Assembly: GCA_030057555.1 (NCBI GenBank)
Contig: JASGUU010000064.1
Coordinates: forward strand, 1-64,000
From: Bacillota bacterium
Lineage (GTDB): Bacteria > Bacillota > Clostridia > Saccharofermentanales > Fastidiosipilaceae
Length of the DNA: 64,000 bases
Direction: 5' to 3'
Position numbers and translations under genes: made by a program. The notes below the pieces were generated by a model. The model did no database searches and was not told the origin of the DNA. It worked only from the letters and a program-made list of their open reading frames with translations. Positions 14,032 to 55,879 of the stretch are shown one piece after another (positions within the stretch are counted from its first letter, which is position 1; every line of letters starts with the position of its first letter).

Positions 14032-14698
14032 TCTCTCCCTTCGTGGCCGTGCTGCCGTGCGGCACCGCCCATTTGCCATCCAGTCTAGAGATGAAGAGCT
14101 TTGAAGCGGGACCGGTATTTCCGCCGGATTTTACCGTGATCCGCCCAAAGCCAGCCCGACAGCCACAGCCTGCCATATATGTCTGCAGTAAAAGGCCGCC
14201 TCCCGGAGAGCACAGCTTATCCGCCTGCGACAACCGGTCAGGCCTGGCTGGCAGATCTTTCAAGGCTACCTATGGACTGGATTCTCGTGCCCGTATGAAG
14301 TGGCTGCCGGAAAGCTGGCCGGGAGGTACAGACCGATGGCAGAAGATCTCCCTACTGTGCACTGCATACAGTGCCCAGGCTGCAGAGTACCCCTGCTCCC
14401 AGGAGATCCCAATGGGCTGCCGCCGGTCAGAAATACGGCCACTGCGTCAGTATTTCGGGCTGCGGGGCCATGCCGGGGCGCGAGGCCGGCAAAAGGGGTG
14501 GACGGAGCAGCCAGGGGAGCAGGCGGCATGGAAACGGCTCCACAGACACCTCTCAGTACACGTCCGGCACCCCTGAGATGAGACTGCAGGAATTAGACAA
14601 CATGTCTGAGACCACGACAGAGAACGGCAGGAGGCGCACCGGGCAGGAAGCGGGGGTGCATGCCAGAAGGACGGCTGGCAGGGGAAAAAGCAGCCTGC
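14032..14698. other. Long intergenic stretch, nothing recognised
   Basis: Spacer between the PC4-type gene and the dispersed repeat. Open frames here on both strands lack plausible ribosome sites and resemble no family I know. Composition is similar to the coding regions, so a decayed gene is possible but cannot be shown. Confidence 0.4.
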
Positions 14699-14699
14699 G

Positions 14700-14870
14700 G
14701 ACTTCTGGTGGTCAAAACGAAGAGAAATCCAAAAAAACATTTGGATTACTCGCCATCTTGACCACAAAGGGGGCGTTTCTGGTCAGAACGATGAGAAATC
14801 TAAAAATGATTTGGATATGACTTGCCCCCCAAATGGAACCAGAGAACTACAGGGTGCCGGACGTCTATCT
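14700..14870 (+). repeat. Dispersed repeat, family 2, copy 1
   Basis: The segment around TTTGGATTACTCGCCATC, then TTGACCACAA (14740-14766), and CCCCCCAAATGG..GAACTACAGGGTGCCGG (14825-14861), recurs near 49.2-49.56 kb. Inside this copy two near-identical units start GGTCAAAACGAAGAGAAATC (14710) and GGTCAGAACGATGAGAAATC (14781). The element does not show a convincing gene. Confidence 0.6.
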
Positions 14871-16403: not shown

Positions 16404-16990
16404 CAGCCGTCCTTTCTCGTCATGACGTGATCGATCAGCCCATACTCTACCGCCTCTTCGGCCGTCATCCAGCGATCGCGCTCGGTATCCTCGCAAATCC
16501 GCTCCAGAGGCTGTCCGGTGCGCTCGGCCAGGATGCGGTTCAGCCGCTCGCGCAGCTGCAGGATATGTTCGGCAGCGATCGAGATGTCCGTCGCCTGTCC
16601 CTGTGTGCCGCCCGAAGGCTGGTGAATCATGAGCTCGGCATTCGGGAGCGCAAAGCGCTTACCCTTCGTCCCGGCCGCCACCAGGAAAGCGCCCATGCTC
16701 GCCGCCATGCCCATGCAGATCGTCTGCACATCGGGCCTGATGTGCTGCATCGTATCGTAAATCATCAGACCGCTGGCAACTTCGCCGCCGGGGCTGTTGA
16801 TATAGAACTGAATGTCCTTCTCGGGATCCTCGGCTTCCAGATAGAGCAGCTGCGCCGTCACCAGGCTGGCGGTCACATGGTTGACGCTCTCGCTCAGGAT
16901 GATAATACGCTCCTTCAGCAGACGTGAATAGATATCGTACGAACGCTCGCCGCGGCTGGTCTGTTCGATGACCATTGGCACCAGACTCAT
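16403..16990 (-). CDS. clpP: ATP-dependent Clp protease proteolytic subunit
   Basis: Serine protease that forms the 14-mer barrel used by ClpX. The 195 residues include the nucleophile motif GMAASMGAF, histidine in [10 protein letters not shown] and the YINSPGG handle. The ATG at 16990 follows AAAGGAG. Order tig-clpP-clpX is conserved in bacteria. A promoter and a possible CtsR site lie upstream. Confidence 0.98.
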
Positions 16991-17048
16991 AATGTAAAGC
17001 TCTCCTTTATTCTCCTGGCCGCCGGCACCGACATGGAGGGCCGGCTGG

Positions 17049-17064
17049 CTTGTCTTTCTTTGAC
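17049..17064 (-). promoter_or_regulatory. CtsR-like operator before clpP
   Basis: The minus strand reads GTCAAAGAAAGACAAG just past the clpP -10 box, which is close to the heptad repeat GTCAAA-NANR-GTCAAA bound by the class III heat-shock repressor CtsR. The second half-site matches only partly. CtsR itself is not in the window. Confidence 0.4.
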
Positions 17065-17074
17065 ATTCCCTGTC

Positions 17075-17103
17075 ATCATACAGCCTCGCGGCCGTCACCG
17101 CAA
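17075..17103 (-). promoter_or_regulatory. clpP promoter
   Basis: TTGCGG (17098-17103), 17 bases and TATGAT (17075-17080) on the minus strand, in the gap between tig and clpP. Confidence 0.55.
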
Positions 17104-17186
17104 GCGGAAAAGCGACAAAGGGCCGAATAGTGCAAAAAGCGACCACCTCTGTGATGGCCGCCTCATGTGCCTCCGGAAACAGCGAA

Positions 17187-18569
17187 TCAGTCGTCGGCGC
17201 CTGTCTCTTCTCCGGTTCCGGAAGCGGCTTCACCGGCGGCGGGCATCTCGACCGCAACCGGCTCCGGCTCCGCAACCGCAAAGGCGGAATCGCGGATCAG
17301 GTCAACGGCCCTGCGCAGCACTGCCTGGGATTTCAGGTGGTTCATCAGACCCTCCCTGTTCTCCTCCGGCACCGTTTCGAGCAGCTCGTCTGCATTCTGC
17401 TTGTACTGACTGGCTACGCGCTCGAGTTCTCTCTGAACATCATTCTCGTCGGCCTCAATATTCTCCGCCGCGACGATGGCCTCCAGGACGAGCGAGGTAC
17501 GGACATTGGCCTCGGCCTGAACGCGAAAGCGATCGCGGAATTCCCTCTCCGTCTGATTGGTGTATTTCAGGAAATCTTCGAAGGCAATGCCCATCCGCTC
17601 GTAGTAGCCCGCCTGCTGGTCGACCATGCGGTCGATCTGCTCCTCGATCATGACATTCGGGATATCGACTGCAGCCTCGGCAGTGACAGCCTGAATCACG
17701 TTGTTCTCAAAGACCGTCCTGGCCTGCTCCTCGGCTTCCTTCATCAGTTTCTCGCGGATACTCTCGCGGTATTCGTCCATCGTGTCAAATTCGCTGACAT
17801 CCATGGCGAAGTCATCGTCGAGGTCCGGCAGTTCCTTCCGCCGGATCGCATGAAGCGTGACATGGAAAACCGCCGCGGCCCCCTTCAGATCCTCGCTGTG
17901 ATAGTCCTCCGGAAAGGTCACTTCAACATCGAACTCGTCGCCGATTTCATGGCCGATGACCTGTTCCTCGAAGCCGGGGATGAAGCTGCCCGAGCCGAGC
18001 ACGAGCTCGGCGTCTTCGGCTGAACCGCCCTCGAAGGCGACGCCGTCCTTTTCACCGACATAGTCGATCGTGACGGTGTCGCCATCCTCAGCAGCGCGGT
18101 CATCGATGCTGACGAGGCGGGAGTTGCGGTCACGGACACGGGCAATCTCGGCATCCACCTGCTGCGGATCAAACGACAGCTCGGGTTTGACGGCCTCGAC
18201 GCCCTTATAGCGTCCCAGCGTCACGTCGGGTTTGACGGTTACTTCAAACACCGCCACGAGCTCGCGGCCGCGGCCGATGCTCTCGATATCAACATCCGGC
18301 GTGCCCACCCAGTCGAGGTCATGTTCCTTGATGGCTTTGTTCAGTGCATCGGGCAAAAGGATCGAGGTGGCATCTTCATAGAGAATGCCCTCGCCATATG
18401 TGCGCAGCACCAGATTCATGGGAGCCTTGCCACGGCGGAAGCCGGGTATGTTGAACATGTTTTTCTGGCGCTGAAAAGCGCGCTCCATGGCAGACTCAAA
18501 TTCTTCTGCAGAAAGGGTCACGCGCAGTGTAACCACGCTGTTTTCCTTCTTCACCACTGTAGACGTCAT
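17187..18569 (-). CDS. tig: Trigger factor
   Basis: Ribosome-bound chaperone and peptidyl-prolyl isomerase. The 460 residues have the N-terminal ribosome-binding signature ([12 protein letters not shown] near 45), the FKBP-type domain around 160-240 ([20 protein letters not shown]), and the C-terminal helical arms. A tail of about 30 residues rich in Ala, Glu, Pro and Gly extends past the usual end. The gene precedes clpP and clpX. Confidence 0.97.

Positions 18570-25281: not shown

Positions 25282-25285
<4 letters not shown>
24473..25285 (-). CDS. ComF family protein (phosphoribosyltransferase-like)
   Basis: ComFC-type protein associated with DNA uptake. A four-cysteine zinc finger ([21 protein letters not shown]) opens the protein, then the phosphoribosyltransferase fold with [19 protein letters not shown]. 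There is no ATG or GTG before the zinc finger in frame. The best candidate is CTG at 25285, overlapping the metK TGA; a GTG at 25153 would lose the finger. The start is therefore uncertain, the identity good. Confidence 0.8.
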
Positions 25286-26553
<1,268 letters not shown>

Positions 26554-26808
26554 ATCGTCCTCCATGGCAGCTGCCCGGCCGCGGGAAACAGGCCTGCCGC
26601 TCCGGGTTCGGGCTGCACAAGTATTCTTCGTCATGTTAGCACAGAGTAATCCTGCCGGGTGCAGCGGGCGGAAGAGGGCGGGAAGCGGCGGATCGTGACG
26701 GGATTCTCCTCCCCCGCCGGGTCCGGGGCCGGGCCAGACTGATGCCAGCAGCCACGGGTCCGCCGTACTTCGCGCGGACAGCAGTACCAGAAGCGGAAAG
26801 GAAATCTC

Positions 26809-27900
26809 ATGCAGCAACAGCTCATCCTGCTCGACCCCGATCCGGCCTTCGCCCGCCGCCTCGCCTGGCGGCTGCTGGAGGTCGAAAACAGGCAGGCGCC
26901 CGGACGACTGCGCCTGACCTGCTGCCGAAGCCCCGGTGCCCTCGCAGGTCTGGGCCCTGAACTGAACTCGAGTGTGCTGGTCTATCGCCCGGAACGCTAT
27001 CCCGACTGGAGCTGTCCGCCCGGGCTGTCAAGCCTGCGCCTCCACGCCGGCCACCGCCTGCAGGAACTCGTCGGACCGGAAGGCAGAGCGGCTCCGGCGG
27101 CAGGCGCGCTCAGGCTCGGTGAAGAAGCTGAAGGCCACTGGCCCGTCATGCAGACGGCCACGGATGGCAGCCGGCATATCAATCTCCCCCAGCATGCCGG
27201 GCTCGCCCTCATCCGCTCCCAGCTTGAGCGTCTCTTCCCGACCGCCGAACGGCGCCATGCCGGTGCCCTCTGCCGCACCCTGCTCATCGTCGCCGACCTG
27301 CCCCCTGCGCTGCGTGCCGCCGCACTTGAGAAGTGTCTCACCGAGCCCGACAACCGCGGTCGCCGCATTCTGCATCTGCCGCTGCTGTCCGTGGCCGACT
27401 GCAGGGCCGATCTGCTGCCCGTCCGTGCCCCCGCCGGTCCCCGCAGCGACCTCGAAGCTGCTCTCGACCGTCTCGATGCGGGCGACCTCCCGGGCGGGGC
27501 CGTCTGGTCCTGGCTCTCACCCACTCCGTCCGGTGACTTCAGCTTTGCGCCGCCGGCGGACAGCGCTGCGCTCGCGCGGCTGGCGGCCTCGAGTCTGGAG
27601 CGTCTGGTCGCTCTGCTGCAGCAGGCGGTCACGGAAGCCCACGAGCGCTCCCTCGTTCTGCTGCAGGCAGCTCCCGAGGCAGTGGAGAGCCTGCCCGGGG
27701 CGGCCACTCTCTGTGACGAAGCAATCCTCATGCTGACGGCAGACGGCGCCGCCCATCCGGGTCTCGGTGAGAGCTTTGCCCGCATCACCTCCTGCCTGCC
27801 TGCGCGGGCGCGCTACCGTGACTGGCTTCTGCCGGCATTCGGCGAAGGACGCCATGGCTCCAGTCCCGAGGGGCGGACGACCGTCTCCGCTTCCCGATGA
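26809..27900 (+). CDS. TadZ/CpaE-like pilus assembly protein without P-loop
   Basis: First gene of the Tad operon. The first ~20 residues ([20 protein letters not shown]) look like the start of the receiver-like domain found in CpaE/TadZ, which places the pilus machine at a cell pole. The next part has the expected size for the MinD-like ATPase domain, but no Walker A (GKT/GKS) is present anywhere in its 363 residues. The call rests on this and on position directly before cpaF, with a four-base overlap. GGAAAGGA precedes the start. Confidence 0.55.
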
Positions 27901-29108
27901 GACGCCGCCATCGCCGACCGGCGTTCCCTGACCAGAAGCCGGCAGTGGATCTCGCCCGCCTGGAAACGGAGGTTCCGCGCACACTCATCGAGCGTCTCGG
28001 CACCGGGGCCCTGCCGGCGGGCGCGGAACTCGGCCGCCTCATCGCCGACGAGGTACACCACCGCCTGCTGGGTACGCGTGTCTCTCTCGAGGAGCGGCGG
28101 CGCCTTATACGCACGATTCAAGACGAGATGTCGGGACTGGACGTGCTGCAGACATTTATGGACCGTCCCGAGGTGACGGAAATCATGGTGAACGGTCCCG
28201 AACACGTCTTCGTTGAGGAGGACGGCCGCATTCGGCCTGCCGGGGTGCGTTTCCGCGACCGCGGGCATCTGACGGATGTCATCGTGCATTTCTTCAGCCG
28301 CGAGAACCGCGCCATCAACTACTGGCAGCCACTGGCGGATATGCGCCTGCCCGACGGTTCCCGGGCGAACGCCGTTCTGCCCCCGATCGCCCCGGACGGT
28401 CCCATTCTCACGATCCGGAAATTTACCGGCATCCGTCACGAAGGGCCGGCCCTGCTGGCCTCCGGGATGCTCAGTGGAGAAGCGCTGGACTTTCTGCAGC
28501 GGGCGGTCGCAGAGCGCAGGACCATCTTCATCAGCGGCGGCACGGGAACGGGGAAGACAACGCTGCTGAACGTCCTTTCGCAGGCCATTCCAGCTGCGGA
28601 GCGCATCGTCACCATCGAGGACAGCGCCGAGCTGCAGCTGGTCGGCCGCGACAATCTGGTGCGCCTCGAGTGCCGGCCGCAGGGCGCCGAAGGACAGGGT
28701 GAAATCGCGATGAGCCAGCTGATCCGCACGGCCCTGCGCATGCGTCCGGACCGCCTCATCATCGGTGAGGTGCGCGGCGCCGAGGCCTACGACCTCATGG
28801 TTTCGCTCAACACCGGGCACCGCGGCACGCTCTGTACCGTGCATGCCAATACCTGCCGTCACCTGCTGCCACGTCTGGCCTCGCTCGTGCTCGAAAACAG
28901 TCAGCTGCCCTACGAGGCCGTGCGCCGTGAACTGGCGGCCGCCATCGACTACATCGTCCAGATTGTCCGCGAAGCGGACGGGCGCCGGCGGGTCCAGGAG
29001 ATCTGCCGCGTACGGCAGACCACCGGAGGTTTCGAAGACCTTGAAACCATTTTTCTACGAAGGGAGGAAGTGGATGCGCTGGAAGCACTGGCTGCGCCTC
29101 GGCCTTGA
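27897..29108 (+). CDS. cpaF: Tad pilus secretion ATPase CpaF/TadA
   Basis: Hexameric ATPase of the type II/IV secretion superfamily that drives pilus extension and retraction. It has 403 residues: an N-terminal helical domain, the EVTEIMVNGPEHVFVEEDGRI segment, Walker A SGGTGTGKTTLLN around 215, Walker B region with DRLIIGEVRGAEAYDLM, and the HRGTLCTVHANT His box. The ATG overlaps the preceding stop (ATGA). Confidence 0.96.
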   Translation: MRRRHRRPAFPDQKPAVDLARLETEVPRTLIERLGTGALPAGAELGRLIADEVHHRLLGTRVSLEERRRLIRTIQDEMSGLDVLQTFMDRPEVTEIMVNGPEHVFVEEDGRIRPAGVRFRDRGHLTDVIVHFFSRENRAINYWQPLADMRLPDGSRANAVLPPIAPDGPILTIRKFTGIRHEGPALLASGMLSGEALDFLQRAVAERRTIFISGGTGTGKTTLLNVLSQAIPAAERIVTIEDSAELQLVGRDNLVRLECRPQGAEGQGEIAMSQLIRTALRMRPDRLIIGEVRGAEAYDLMVSLNTGHRGTLCTVHANTCRHLLPRLASLVLENSQLPYEAVRRELAAAIDYIVQIVREADGRRRVQEICRVRQTTGGFEDLETIFLRREEVDALEALAAPRP

Positions 29109-30633
29109 ATGGCTCGGCCTCGCCCTGCCGCTCGCGGTTCTCTGCTGGTTTTTCATCCCGCAGCGCCTGCTCGCCCTTGCCCTCGGCCTGCTGCTGGCAC
29201 CCCTGCCCCTGCACAGCCTGCGCCAGGCCGTCCGCATCTGGCGGCTGGAGCGCATCAACCGCCGCTATGGCCTCTTCTTTCAGTATCTCTACACCGAAAC
29301 CGGCGGCGGCCGCTCACTCGAGACAGCCTGCCGCGGGGCGGCCGCTCACTTCGCCTTCTTCTACGGGCCCAACGAGCCCTTCATGCGTGAGCTGATCCGC
29401 CTCGAGCGCGGCCTCGAACTGCAGCAGCCCCTGCAGGAGCTCTTCCGCGGCATGGCCGGGCGCACCGCCGCCACGGAAGCCCGCGCCGTCCTCTATCTGC
29501 TCGCCTCCAGCCAGCTGCTGGGACCACGGCTGCGGGAGATCCTCGAGACGGCCGCCACGATGCTGGGCGAACTGCACCGCATCGGCCGTCAGGTGGCCGC
29601 CGAGAACGCGAGACAGAATCTCGAGGCCGTCATTCTGATCATTCTGCCCTTCGCGCTGATGCCCGCCATGCATGTGATCGCGGCGGAGGACCTCGCCCGC
29701 AGCCGCAGCAGCGGCTACGGCCTTCTGCTGCTGGGCGCCGCGCTGTGTCTCTCTGTTCTGGCGGGCAGTCTCGTGCTGCGGCTGCGGGCCGGACTGCGGG
29801 AGACAAAAATCCCCGAGGGCAGCTTTCTCCGGCTGCGGGCCGGGCTCATCCGCTCCGAAACCCTTCTCGGTCTCGGGAAAACCATGACCGCCAGACTGCC
29901 GGCACGCTATCGTCTGCGCATTTACCGGGCGATGCGGACGCTGCTGCATGTCGAGAGCTCTTCGTCACGATCCGGACCGGCAGACCGCGAGGGCGATGTC
30001 ATCGAACAGCTGGTTGCCGGCTGGGTTCTGCTGCGCGCCCTTCTTTTCGGCAGTCTGCTCGGGCTCGGGCTCCTGCTTCAGCTCATGGGCAGGCGGCCGC
30101 CCGGGCTTTTTGCGCTGCTGGTTCTGTTCATCGCCACCGTGCTCCCCGAACGTCAGCTTTTTGTCCGCCAGGAGCGCTATCAGCTCGCCCTGCTCGCGAG
30201 CTTCCCCCTCTACACAGCCCTGATGGTGCAGCTGCTGCGCTCGGGTTTCAGCCTCGGACGGGCCATTCTTTTCTGCAGCCGGCACATGGATCCCGGCACC
30301 CCGATTGAGAGGGAGTTCGCGCATTTTCGTCCCGCTCTCGAGGCCGGCGAACGTGCCTCCAGCCTGCTGACACAGTTTGCCTCGCGGCTGGACGAACTCG
30401 AGGCACACACGGTCTTTCTCCTCTTTGCCCAGTATGAACGCTTTGGCGGCGACGAGACCCTCGGCCAGCTCGAACGCGCCGTTGACAAGGGCTGGGAGCT
30501 GATGAAGCAGGCCAGACGCCGCAGCGGCGACCTGCAGGCGGCGGCCATGCTGCTGCCCATGCTGCTGGCCATGCTTGCCGTCATCCTCATCGGTATCACA
30601 CCGGCCCTGAACTACTTTCTCTTTGCGTTTTAA
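29074..30633 (+). CDS. TadB-TadC fusion, pilus membrane platform
   Basis: Inner-membrane platform of the Tad pilus. The 519 residues appear to contain two T2SSF-type units in one chain. The first (about 1-260) has two N-terminal helices, a cytoplasmic part and a helix pair around LILPFALMPAMHVIAA. The second (about 310-519) has helices near LLRALLFGSLLGLGLLLQLM and LLAMLAVILIGITPALNYF. TadB and TadC are normally separate proteins. The ATG at 29074 follows GGGAGGAAG and overlaps cpaF by 35 bases. Confidence 0.8.
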   Translation: MRWKHWLRLGLEWLGLALPLAVLCWFFIPQRLLALALGLLLAPLPLHSLRQAVRIWRLERINRRYGLFFQYLYTETGGGRSLETACRGAAAHFAFFYGPNEPFMRELIRLERGLELQQPLQELFRGMAGRTAATEARAVLYLLASSQLLGPRLREILETAATMLGELHRIGRQVAAENARQNLEAVILIILPFALMPAMHVIAAEDLARSRSSGYGLLLLGAALCLSVLAGSLVLRLRAGLRETKIPEGSFLRLRAGLIRSETLLGLGKTMTARLPARYRLRIYRAMRTLLHVESSSSRSGPADREGDVIEQLVAGWVLLRALLFGSLLGLGLLLQLMGRRPPGLFALLVLFIATVLPERQLFVRQERYQLALLASFPLYTALMVQLLRSGFSLGRAILFCSRHMDPGTPIEREFAHFRPALEAGERASSLLTQFASRLDELEAHTVFLLFAQYERFGGDETLGQLERAVDKGWELMKQARRRSGDLQAAAMLLPMLLAMLAVILIGITPALNYFLFAF

Positions 30634-30878
30634 CGCAAAGCCCGGCTCGAAGCAGTCTCAGTGGGAATGCATCCCCGTGGTGTGAAGCATCGCACGCCGG
30701 GGCAGAGCCGCATGGAAATGCACACCTCGTCAGGTGCGCGGCGCAGGGGCGGATTGGCGCGGTTAGCAGCAGAATTTCACCTGCCCCCAACCCGTGCGGG
30801 GAAGCTAGAGTCGGAAGCACAGCCCGCGGGAACGAACGGAACAGCGAGAGCATTGACACGAATAAAGGAGAGTCAAAC
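30634..30878 (+). other. Structured spacer before the pilin gene
   Basis: This 245-base gap inside an otherwise overlapping operon can form several hairpins: CCCCGTGGTGTG with CGCACGCCGGGG (30673-30703), CACCT/AGGTG near 30725, and a longer GGGGC..GCCCC stem ending at 30788. No T-run terminator follows. It could be a processing or stabilising leader that raises pilin mRNA. I could not match it to a known riboswitch. Confidence 0.4.
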
Positions 30879-31076
30879 ATGTCCAAAGTAAGGGAAAAAA
30901 AGCAGCGGCGGAAGCTCAGACATGACGTACGCGCGATGGGGACACTCGAGGTCGTGATCATTATCGCGGCCCTGCTCGCCCTCGCCATCCTCTTCAACAC
31001 GCAGATCCGCGCCTTCGCGGACCGCGCCTTCCAGCTCGTCTTCAACGACAGCCGCATCGTCGACGTGCTGGATTAG
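30879..31076 (+). CDS. Flp1-like Tad pilin
   Basis: A 65-residue prepilin: a basic leader (MSKVREKKQRRKLRHDVRAM), likely processing after Gly21 in AMG-TLEVV with a glutamate two residues after the first mature residue, and a hydrophobic stretch VVIIIAALLALAILF. This is the pattern of short Flp-type pilins of Clostridia. AAAGGAGAG precedes the ATG. No prepilin peptidase gene is in the window. Confidence 0.8.
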   Translation: MSKVREKKQRRKLRHDVRAMGTLEVVIIIAALLALAILFNTQIRAFADRAFQLVFNDSRIVDVLD

Positions 31077-31108
31077 CAGGCGCCGGTAGGCGAAAGGCGG
31101 AGGAAGCC

Positions 31109-32617
31109 ATGACACGACAAAAGACAGAGCGAAAAAACGCCGCCGACACGGCCGAACAGCAGTTCTGCTGCCGAGAACTGGGAGCGGACCGGCGCCTCTC
31201 CCGCTGGGAGCTCGACTGGCTGCAGGGGCCGCAGCAGCTGTTTCTGCGCCCCTGGCCGGTGCAGGGCCCCGGCGGTGAAACCTGGCTGCTCTATGAACGC
31301 TCGGGCTGCCTGTCTTTCGACGAGCTTCTGGCCCGGCGGAAACTCGGCTTTGACGACTTCCTCGGCCTGCTTGTCATTCTCTGCCGCCGGATTCTCAGTT
31401 CCATCGACCAGCTGCTGGATCCGGAAAATATCGACATCAGCCGCGAGACGCTTTTCTTCCTCCGACCGCAACAGGACCTCGGCAGGGTGCCGCTTGGAGA
31501 GCTCTTCGCTCAGGCCCGCCTCCTCTATCTCCCGGTCGAGCGCGAACAGCCTGGCGCTGCTTCCGGCGCAGAAGGGATGGATCCGGACGACAGTTTTCTC
31601 CTCGTCCGGGATGAAGAGAGCGTCGATATCCGGATTCCGGGCGACGGCAGCGCCGTCCTCGCCCATCTCGTCGAGGATCTCCTGCAGCACTATTTCCCCG
31701 CAGAGCAGGCGCTCGGCCGTCAGCTTCTGGGCCGCTGCTACTGCGATGTCGACTCGTTTCTCGCCTGGCTCGAGGAGGTCCGGCAGCCGGCGGGGAGCAG
31801 GCGGTACAGTCTGGTCCGGAGAAAGCCCGGCAGATTCCGACGTCGGGCGGCAAAGAAAGCGGCACAGGGCCGCAGAGCAGCACGGGGCCGTGGCGGACGG
31901 CGGGCAGGAGCACGTTTCAGGCTGCCTCTCGCGGGACTCTTCGTGCTTCAGCTCCTCCTGCTGGCCGGCATCCAGCAGCTGATCCGCCTCTATGCCGCAG
32001 GAGCTTCGGCCGCCTTTGCCGCCGCGGCCGCAGCCCTCCTCGTCGCCCTCATCGCCCTTGATGTGGCCCTGCTGCTGCGCCCGGAGCACGGGCCGGGGGA
32101 GGATGAGACCGACTATCAGCGGCGGCAGCGGCTGGCGGCGGCGGAGACGCGACGCCGCGAGCAGCGTCGCCGGCTTGAGCGTGCCATCGAGGCCGGGGCA
32201 GATGCCATCGACAGCCAGCCGGCCTTTGCCTGCCTCTACGACGTCACGGGCGACGGTGATTACCAGATGGGCCAGTCTCCGGTCGGCCGGGCACAGCGCT
32301 TCAACACGGACGACTTCATGCGCCGCCGCGTCCCGCTCGCCGTGCTGATGCACAACAGCTGCTATCTGGGCTCCGGGGCCGGACGGGCGGACATTGTCGT
32401 GGACATCGCCCATCTCGAATCCGTGCGCCTGCGCTTTCGCCGGCATGGCGGCAGCTATCGTCTCTGCGATCTCGGAGGCGTCGGGGAGATTCAACTTGAC
32501 GGCAAGACAATGCCGGCCGGCGAGGAGCTGACCCTCGGCAGCCGGCATGAAATCAGGATCGGAGACTGGAAACTGCTCTATCTGGCACCGACCGCAGGTC
32601 GGACCGCAGCTGGCTAG
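31109..32617 (+). CDS. FHA-domain protein of the Tad locus
   Basis: A 502-residue protein. Residues 1-215 form an alpha/beta domain like the DUF6382 region found in clostridial Tad loci. A basic Arg-rich linker (225-265) is followed by two membrane helices (about 268-325), a charged coiled stretch (330-365) and a C-terminal FHA fold (about 385-495, with YLGSGAGRADIVVDIAHLES). FHA domains bind phosphothreonine, suggesting signalling control of the pilus. It lies 32 bases after the pilin gene. Confidence 0.7.
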   Translation: MTRQKTERKNAADTAEQQFCCRELGADRRLSRWELDWLQGPQQLFLRPWPVQGPGGETWLLYERSGCLSFDELLARRKLGFDDFLGLLVILCRRILSSIDQLLDPENIDISRETLFFLRPQQDLGRVPLGELFAQARLLYLPVEREQPGAASGAEGMDPDDSFLLVRDEESVDIRIPGDGSAVLAHLVEDLLQHYFPAEQALGRQLLGRCYCDVDSFLAWLEEVRQPAGSRRYSLVRRKPGRFRRRAAKKAAQGRRAARGRGGRRAGARFRLPLAGLFVLQLLLLAGIQQLIRLYAAGASAAFAAAAAALLVALIALDVALLLRPEHGPGEDETDYQRRQRLAAAETRRREQRRRLERAIEAGADAIDSQPAFACLYDVTGDGDYQMGQSPVGRAQRFNTDDFMRRRVPLAVLMHNSCYLGSGAGRADIVVDIAHLESVRLRFRRHGGSYRLCDLGGVGEIQLDGKTMPAGEELTLGSRHEIRIGDWKLLYLAPTAGRTAAG

Positions 32618-32623
32618 CGCAGC

Positions 32624-33295
32624 CTACTTGGTCCCGAAGAGGCGGTCTCCCGCATCGCCCAGGCCGGGCAGAATGTAGGCGTGCTCGTTCAGGCCCTCGT
32701 CGAGGGCGGCACAGAAGATAGGCACATCCGGATGCGTCTCATGGAGGCGGCGCACGCCTTCGGGCGCCGCGATCAGGCACATGAACTTGATCATGGTGAT
32801 GCCGCGCTGCTTGAGAAAGCTTACCGCTGCGGCCGCCGAGCCGCCGGTCGCCAGCATGGGATCGAGAACGATACATTCACGGCTCGCCGCATCCTCAGGC
32901 AGCTTCAGGTAGTATTCCACCGGCTCCAGAGTATCGGGATCGCGGTAGATACCGATGTGACCCACACGGGCCATCGGCACCAGTGTCAACATGCCGTCGA
33001 CCATGCCGAGACCGGCACGCAGAATCGGGATGAGCGCGAGCTTCTTCCCGGCGATCACGTAGGATCTGGCTTTCTTAAGCGGCGTCTCGACCTCAACTTC
33101 GGTCAGGGGCAGATCGCGGGTCACCTCGTAGCCCATCAGCGTGGCCACTTCGGAGACGAGCTCGCGAAATTCCTTCGTTGGTGTGTCCTTGCTTCGCATC
33201 AGTGTAATCTTGTGCTGGATCAGGGGATGATCAAAAACCATCAGCTGTCCGCCGGTCGGCAAATCGGTGCGCTTCGCATCCGCCTTCTCACTCAT
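32624..33295 (-). CDS. upp: Uracil phosphoribosyltransferase
   Basis: Salvages uracil to UMP with PRPP. The 223-residue protein has the PRPP loop [20 protein letters not shown] and the uracil-binding [24 protein letters not shown] at the end. It has a 15-residue N-terminal extension over the usual 209. It converges on the FHA gene with six bases between the stops. Confidence 0.97.
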
Positions 33296-49198: not shown

Positions 49199-49562
49199 AG
49201 AATTTGGATTACTCGCGATCCTGACCACAAGAGACGCGCTGTTTATCAGAATCGCCTTTATTACACGACAACAAGGCAAAAGAATCTCGATCGCTTCACA
49301 ATCTCCTGGAACGTGCCAGGTCGTGCCTGTCAGCCTCGCTGCCCGCCTTCCTATTTCTATCCCAATTCACATTCCAGCCGTTTGTGAGGCTGGCCGCTAC
49401 ACAGGCAATGGGAGAAGGGATCTTCCCTATGCCTGCATGCAGGCTGCGCTAAAGCTCCGGTGTTTCAAGTCTTTGAGGAAGGCACAAAAAACTTTAACTG
49501 TCCCGACAAATAAGACGTGCACCCCCAAAGTGGGATTAAATGAACTACAGGGTGCTGGAAAT
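49199..49562 (+). repeat. Dispersed repeat, family 2, copy 2 (interrupted)
   Basis: TTTGGATTACTCGCGATC then CTGACCACAAG (49201-49231) matches 14740-14768, and CCCCCAAAGTGGGATTAAATG..GAACTACAGGGTGCTGGA (49511-49550) matches 14825-14862. About 280 unrelated bases lie between the two halves. Confidence 0.55.
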
Positions 49563-49624
49563 GTACTGTTAGCATCTGTCGGAGGCTGAACCTGGGGCGC
49601 CCAGGCTGACCTGCACTGCCTGGG

Positions 49625-55777: not shown

Positions 55778-55879
55778 GACAGCGGACGCGACGAGCCACC
55801 GCGGCCTCCTGTCCGGCAGGCCTTCGTCCGAAACCGACTTCCCATGTCCCGGCACTTGACGCGACTCGTCTACTCTGTC
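55778..55879 (-). ncRNA. Tetrahydrofolate (THF) riboswitch
   Basis: The leader of folT follows the THF riboswitch consensus closely: closing stem GACAG/CTGTC, GAGTAGACGA, CGCGTCAAGTG, ATGGGAAGTCGG, GGACGAAGG, a GGCC-CTG hairpin, then CGCGGTGGCTCGTCGCGTCC and GCTGT. In known examples bound THF lowers expression of folate transporters. CTCCT in the downstream part can pair with the AGGAGG of folT, suggesting translational control. Confidence 0.93.

Follow-up and report, generated by a model that had tools for sequence, protein, structure and literature searches.

Gene content and organization of the tad locus

We analysed a 64,000-nucleotide stretch of a Fastidiosipilaceae genome (Bacillota; Clostridia; Saccharofermentanales; assembly GCA_030057555.1, contig JASGUU010000064.1, positions 1 to 64,000 of the forward strand), hereafter the window, in which positions 26809-32617 hold a rightward set of five open reading frames (ORFs) encoding a TadZ-like protein, CpaF, a TadB-TadC fusion, a Flp1-like prepilin, and an FHA-like protein (Table 1). 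The genome comprises 2.9 Mb in 90 contigs and is 96% complete. The ORFs agree with the positions of this gene set in an initial annotation made from the sequence alone, which also correctly noted that no peptidase, CpaB, or pseudopilin gene adjoins the locus, the flanking genes being metK and upp. Its description of a largely overlapping unit holds for the first three genes, but tadBC and flp are separated by a gap of 245 bp. The overlap between tadZ and cpaF takes the form ATGA, and the likeliest start of tadBC is the ATG at 29074, which lies within cpaF downstream of AAGGGAGGAAG and yields a 35-nt overlap.

The CpaF protein has an intact Walker A motif (GGTGTGKTT) and matches the TadA-family model TIGR03819 with an E-value of 7.9e-82, at a score under that model's cut-off. 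It is a secretion ATPase of the CpaF/TadA type found in Tad (type IVc) systems, groups with Clostridia CpaFs in a phylogenetic tree, and is the sole T2SSE-family ATPase that we found in the genome. Both TadB/TadC-type platform units are present in one fused protein, and in each of the four families (f1-f4) minimal loci likewise carry tadB-tadC as one ORF. The prepilin is of the Flp type, scoring 38.2 bits against PF16982 (cut-off 33.5).

Table 1 Features of the tad locus and its neighbours in the window.
Feature	Coordinates	Strand	Basis
tadZ homologue, 363 aa; receiver-like N-terminal domain and MinD/ParA-like domain without P-loop, putative pseudo-ATPase	26809-27900	+	Profile homology
cpaF/tadA motor ATPase, 403 aa	27897-29108	+	PF00437, E 1.9e-47
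tadB-tadC fusion, single platform protein, 519 aa	29074-30633	+	Two T2SSF stretches
Platform-pilin intergenic gap, 245 bp	30634-30878	.	Single copy in genome
flp pilin precursor, 65 aa; class III-type signal (..RAMG/TLEVVIIIAALLALAILF, slash at the cleavage mark)	30879-31076	+	PF16982 Flp1_like, E 9.9e-10
DUF6382-like/FHA-like protein, 502 aa; hydrophobic middle stretch	31109-32617	+	Weak PF19909, E 0.008; Yop-YscD_cpl, E 0.0063
metK, conserved left neighbour; synteny marker outside the machine	25282-26559	-	ORF and synteny comparison
upp, right neighbour conserved in several families; synteny marker	32624-33295	-	ORF and synteny comparison

Homology of the TadZ-like protein and loss of its P-loop

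Queried alone against Pfam, NCBIfam, and the Protein Data Bank (PDB), the TadZ-like protein had no useful match, and we compared it with other families through profiles of its orthologues, taken from relatives as the gene directly upstream of cpaF. A smaller profile of 19 orthologues matched two TadZs with P-loops that are encoded at second Tad loci of the same order (4e-10 and 8e-10). With a profile of 28 orthologues, the top match among 177,635 PDB sequences was TadZ of Eubacterium rectale (ErTadZ; 3FKQ), with an E-value of 1.5e-7 and an alignment that included both domains and spanned residues 20-243 of that structure. Lastly, hhalign against a profile of 18 P-loop TadZs returned a probability of 99.0% and an E-value of 3.7e-18 over 269 aligned columns. 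Homology to the TadZ family thus runs along both the receiver-like and the MinD-like domain, and the stretch that carries the P-loop in normal TadZ (SPAGGVGSST) aligns to residues of the window protein that do not form a P-loop. Judged from these alignments, the product of the first gene is a TadZ homologue that has lost its P-loop.

The initial annotation had reported no Walker A motif (GxxxxGK[ST]) anywhere in the 363 residues, which we confirm; given its homology to TadZ and the absent P-loop, the protein therefore cannot be the usual ATPase, as had also been proposed. Its lone GxxGx[ST] string falls within the C-terminal tail (residue 347), and the frequency of this string in TadZs of the order is at chance level (8 of 50 distinct TadZs, with 6.4 expected by shuffling) compared to 33 of 34 P-loop TadZs. 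Only one of these eight strings sits at the P-loop position: GPSGYS, from an f4 genus (g14), which looks like a remnant. Neither an ordinary nor a deviant P-loop of the TadZ/CpaE family was otherwise found in these 50 host-order proteins, and all 30 TadZ loci listed from the class outside the order have one, some without the lysine. Because the P-loop is absent, we file the window protein as a TadZ homologue and putative pseudo-ATPase, outside the TadZ ATPases. A sequencing error or frameshift was considered and rejected, as a same-genus orthologue is 74% identical and of equal length and the loss is order-wide.

Other elements of the nucleotide site are missing as well. The columns invariant in the 18 P-loop TadZs are G136, G138, Y159, D248, K280, and N308 (L065 numbering), and the last three are not matched in the window protein. 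The Walker-B-like Asp is lost in the window TadZ and retained in families f3 and f4, D248 being aligned to Q in the former and kept in the latter (VDC). The hhalign match stops just before K280 and well before N308, leaving the C-terminal part unmatched, and the host-order TadZs are shorter in this part than the P-loop TadZs. Two order-wide motifs, SDDL and, past the lost loop, YLPLMPxY, occupy the former nucleotide face, and this placement would suit a protein that binds nucleotide or another ligand through a remodelled site without a P-loop. We consider this improbable, however, as the P-loop glycines, the equivalents of K280 and N308, and the Walker-B-like Asp of the window protein are all either lost or in the missing sequence.

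Distribution, inheritance, and selection

The profile of P-loop-less TadZ matched 182 of 188 genomes of the host order, including all 106 of high quality; P-loop status was inspected in 50 distinct proteins from this set, and among the weaker matches a small number may be TadZs with a P-loop, encoded at second loci. In a sample of 291 genomes from the class, all ten strong matches belonged to the host order, and five weak matches outside it (E-values of 7e-6 to 3e-10) were P-loop TadZs, while in a sample of 398 genomes from the phylum the one match at 1e-8 was the genome under study. In the CpaF tree (87 rows), 51 rows from minimal loci (49 labelled as such and two whose minimal loci have short TadZ ORFs) fell on one side of a branch with 97/86 support and the CpaFs associated with P-loop TadZs on the other. 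The sole exception among minimal loci was the CpaF of G027, a long-branched sequence from a locus with a truncated TadZ, which was basal on the opposite side. The nearest named record in a CpaF scan was a contig of a same-genus Bacillota metagenome-assembled genome (JASGUW010000197.1).

The order comF-metK-[tadZ-cpaF-tadBC-flp] recurs in f1-f4 where contigs are long enough, and upp follows the locus in several f1 and f3 members and one f4 member. This synteny points to vertical inheritance of the tad locus, and horizontal gain, which we also considered, was rejected on the synteny and the CpaF tree. Between two species of the window's genus, the ratio of nonsynonymous to synonymous substitutions (dN/dS) was 0.23 for tadZ (0.20 within the pseudo-ATPase part) and 0.10 for cpaF, and by this measure tadZ is under purifying selection and maintained. 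Given that the P-loop is missing in essentially every sequenced member of the order, its loss is an old, kept feature and not local damage.

These observations also bear on whether tadZ could be a degenerating relic in a pilus that no longer needs placement. Loss of both the P-loop and the C-terminal nucleotide region would fit such decay, as would the GPSGYS remnant and the condition of one genome of the order in which the locus lacks the flp and FHA genes and no A24 peptidase was matched. A relic would nevertheless not be expected to occur in nearly all genomes of an order, to stand directly upstream of cpaF in intact loci, to show a dN/dS as low as that observed, or to retain motifs such as SDDL order-wide, and we regard this explanation as unlikely. 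The genome in question (G006; one contig, 99% complete; locus L037, C1:1053000-1070000) keeps tadZ-cpaF-tadBC with no room after tadBC for a flp or FHA gene, and a genome-wide search returned no A24 peptidase match; its Tad system is possibly genuinely decaying or altered.

Components encoded elsewhere in the genome

The initial annotation had read the compact locus as a possible reduced pilus type and had suggested a genome search for a prepilin peptidase. That search recovered a single A24 prepilin peptidase gene, unlinked to the tad locus (C31:27880-28185; 46.6 bits against a cut-off of 26.5), and a TadE-like gene scoring above its cut-off (C44:51187-51312) adjoins a DUF5702-like gene, with a third small ORF that resembles TadE and has no Pfam match. 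With minor pseudopilins of the TadE/F type and a peptidase present on other contigs, the pilus does not appear reduced. The split is kept across the order: peptidases were found in 53 of 58 relatives, and a homologous adjacent pair of TadE and DUF5702 genes occurs in relatives of all four families. Because CpaF is the only such motor found, the unlinked peptidase and pseudopilins most likely serve the machine encoded in the window. A previous survey made provision for Tad systems dispersed among several loci but termed them very rare (PMC6668835).

On the components tested, the system is, as far as sequence can tell, a Tad (type IVc) pilus. The locus might instead encode a Tad-derived device for secretion or DNA uptake, given that type IV filaments of monoderms serve several functions and that a single machine in the genome could serve any of them; the Flp1-like prepilin in the operon and the A24 peptidase, as expected of a pilus, make this highly improbable.

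Second Tad-type loci are present in some members of the order (L059-L062 in f4, L063, L064 in G051, and L065 in G037). Where complete, they encode tadB and tadC separately, and most have TadZ P-loops of the form GGVGRTT, GGIGKTT, GSGSST, or GGVGSST. They are useful within-cell controls, as both types of TadZ can be compared in one cell.

The genome under study yielded no such P-loop TadZ at any other locus: only Soj and Mrp scored over the cut-off in a PF13614 search, and an intact TadZ elsewhere was rejected on this basis. The initial annotation had named as grounds for abandoning its proposal a standard arrangement in close relatives combined with an intact TadZ elsewhere: the arrangement is indeed standard in relatives, but no intact copy was found in the genome. 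The same search revealed no MinD, and the species may be without a MinD system.

An ATP switch could also be supplied in trans by another ParA/MinD protein such as Soj, with TadZ as its adaptor. Action through adaptors is common among ParA-family proteins, and the genome has kept Soj and Mrp, both of which would fit this explanation. We nonetheless think it rather unlikely, since beyond these two no ParA/MinD paralogue exceeded the cut-off in the genome and none lies near the tad genes.

The FHA-like protein

The last gene of the operon has orthologues in which both DUF6382 and FHA domains score above cut-off; in one of them (L039), PF00498 is matched at E 4.6e-14 and PF19909 above its cut-off. 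In f3 and f4 these homologues mostly keep the residues that bind phosphothreonine (IGRD, S/GRxHAR, and NGT), and in f2 the arginine of GR is replaced. The window protein has LGSGAG, LESVRL, and VGEIQLDG at the GR, SxxH, and NG positions, all three changed, and the suggestion of phosphothreonine signalling onto the machine through this protein therefore finds no support here. The domain may still bind proteins.

Proposed role of TadZ

We propose, with a probability of roughly 0.6, that the five genes form the core operon of a type IVc (Tad) pilus which is complete, though divided among loci, and ancestral to the order, with TadZ as an ATP-independent scaffold. Powered by CpaF, the TadB-TadC fusion platform would polymerise the Flp1-like pilin, which would first be cleaved by the unlinked A24 peptidase, and the unlinked TadE/DUF5702-like pseudopilins would be minor subunits. 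TadZ would have become a pseudo-ATPase that keeps its receiver-like domain and MinD-like fold and has lost its P-loop and C-terminal nucleotide elements, and it most likely binds CpaF and the platform to tether or position the machine. Without a P-loop it must assemble without ATP or not dimerise, and we infer that its stoichiometry with CpaF would be set by translational coupling at the ATGA overlap rather than by ATP-driven dimerisation. A constitutive scaffold, produced in concert with CpaF, seems to us the most economical reading, and altered placement control, as first suggested for this locus, is plausible.

Several points weigh against this proposal. The connection of the TadE/DUF5702 genes to the operon is by elimination, not co-location. 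SDDL has become SAAL in the window's own genus, and the window TadZ may have drifted further than its relatives. An AlphaFold model of the protein, built from a two-sequence alignment with one same-genus homologue, reached a pLDDT of 40, so that the fold assignment rests on profile comparison. Finally, in a genome of this completeness and contig number, the failure to find a second TadZ is strong evidence but not proof that none exists.

Known systems offer partial precedents. ErTadZ and Clostridia TadZs with ordinary or lysine-less P-loops share with the window protein the succession of receiver-like and MinD-like domains and a gene directly upstream of cpaF; ErTadZ, however, has retained a P-loop of variant form and binds ATP, and this binding is important for dimerisation according to a passage in PMC13170226 citing Xu 2012, whereas the window TadZ has other residues in place of the P-loop and lacks the C-terminal nucleotide region. 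Caulobacter CpaE, which is classed as an ATPase of the ParA/MinD family and ends in a C-terminal amphipathic helix, has been modelled as dimers forming a ring around CpaF with contacts through the receiver domains (PMC13170226); in its homologous position and class of role, as a hub around CpaF, it sets a precedent for the scaffold geometry, although no P-loop is seen in the window protein. The Tad (type IVc) pilus of Bifidobacterium breve, also a monoderm, is similarly minimal, with a pilin, two minor pilins, ATPase, platform, and TadZ, and its peptidase is encoded at another locus (PMC6916266), but its platform consists of two proteins, whereas in the window tadB and tadC are fused, the pseudopilins are unlinked too, and the operon includes an FHA-like gene. 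Lastly, BcsE of cellulose secretion combines a degenerate receiver with a RecA-like domain lacking Walker A, oligomerises, and recruits partners (PMC7439463). It is a parallel in how it works and not in kinship, as no search linked the two proteins, and it differs in having a GGDEF domain and in serving another system. In the open-access literature we found no text describing a TadZ without a P-loop and none linking Tad pili with Saccharofermentans.

Other elements in the window

A regulatory RNA in the gap between tadBC and flp was considered and rejected: no Rfam family scored above threshold, the best matches (E-values of 1.4 and 1.7) being far under their gathering scores, and folding was not unusual (z = +0.7). 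The second of these, to the F. prausnitzii HDV-like ribozyme at 30707-30762 (15.2 bits, gathering score 44), is probably a chance match.

Elsewhere in the window, a dispersed repeat of the genome occurs at 14646-14816 and 49202-49566, with further copies at L053:8122-8464 and 16932-17484, L054:5680-6236, L055:3291-3642, and L092:16130-16553. In L053 it has a 71-bp period with 3.9 copies. Near 14646, and in L053, it contains a near-palindrome (TGGTCAAAACGAAGAG..ATCCAAA..TTTGGATTACTCGCCATCTTGACCA) that forms a long hairpin (z of -5.2 on the minus strand); the part at 49235-49380 has no unusual fold. The repeat matches no Rfam family and looks like a REP-type element. A tetrahydrofolate riboswitch aptamer lies at 55778-55879 on the minus strand (73.8 bits).

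Implications

The locus bears on what the nucleotide cycle of TadZ contributes and on how the type IVc assembly complex is held together; whether TadZ or TadG substitutes for PilM-N-O has been raised previously (PMC6916266). A TadZ whose P-loop was lost long ago and which is still selected across an order is a natural separation-of-function mutant, suggesting that the scaffold role can stand without ATP. Because it has no Pfam or NCBIfam match when queried alone, annotation pipelines overlook P-loop-less TadZ, and given the dispersed parts they may call such pili incomplete. As judged from the sequences, the locus most likely represents an order-wide variant of the Tad (type IVc) pilus with TadZ as an ATP-independent scaffold. 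More tentatively, at a little under even odds, the whole order may assemble and place its Tad pili without a ParA/MinD-type ATP switch, the TadZ hub having become nucleotide-independent in a single ancestral event together with the fusion of TadB and TadC and the dispersal of the pseudopilin and peptidase genes.

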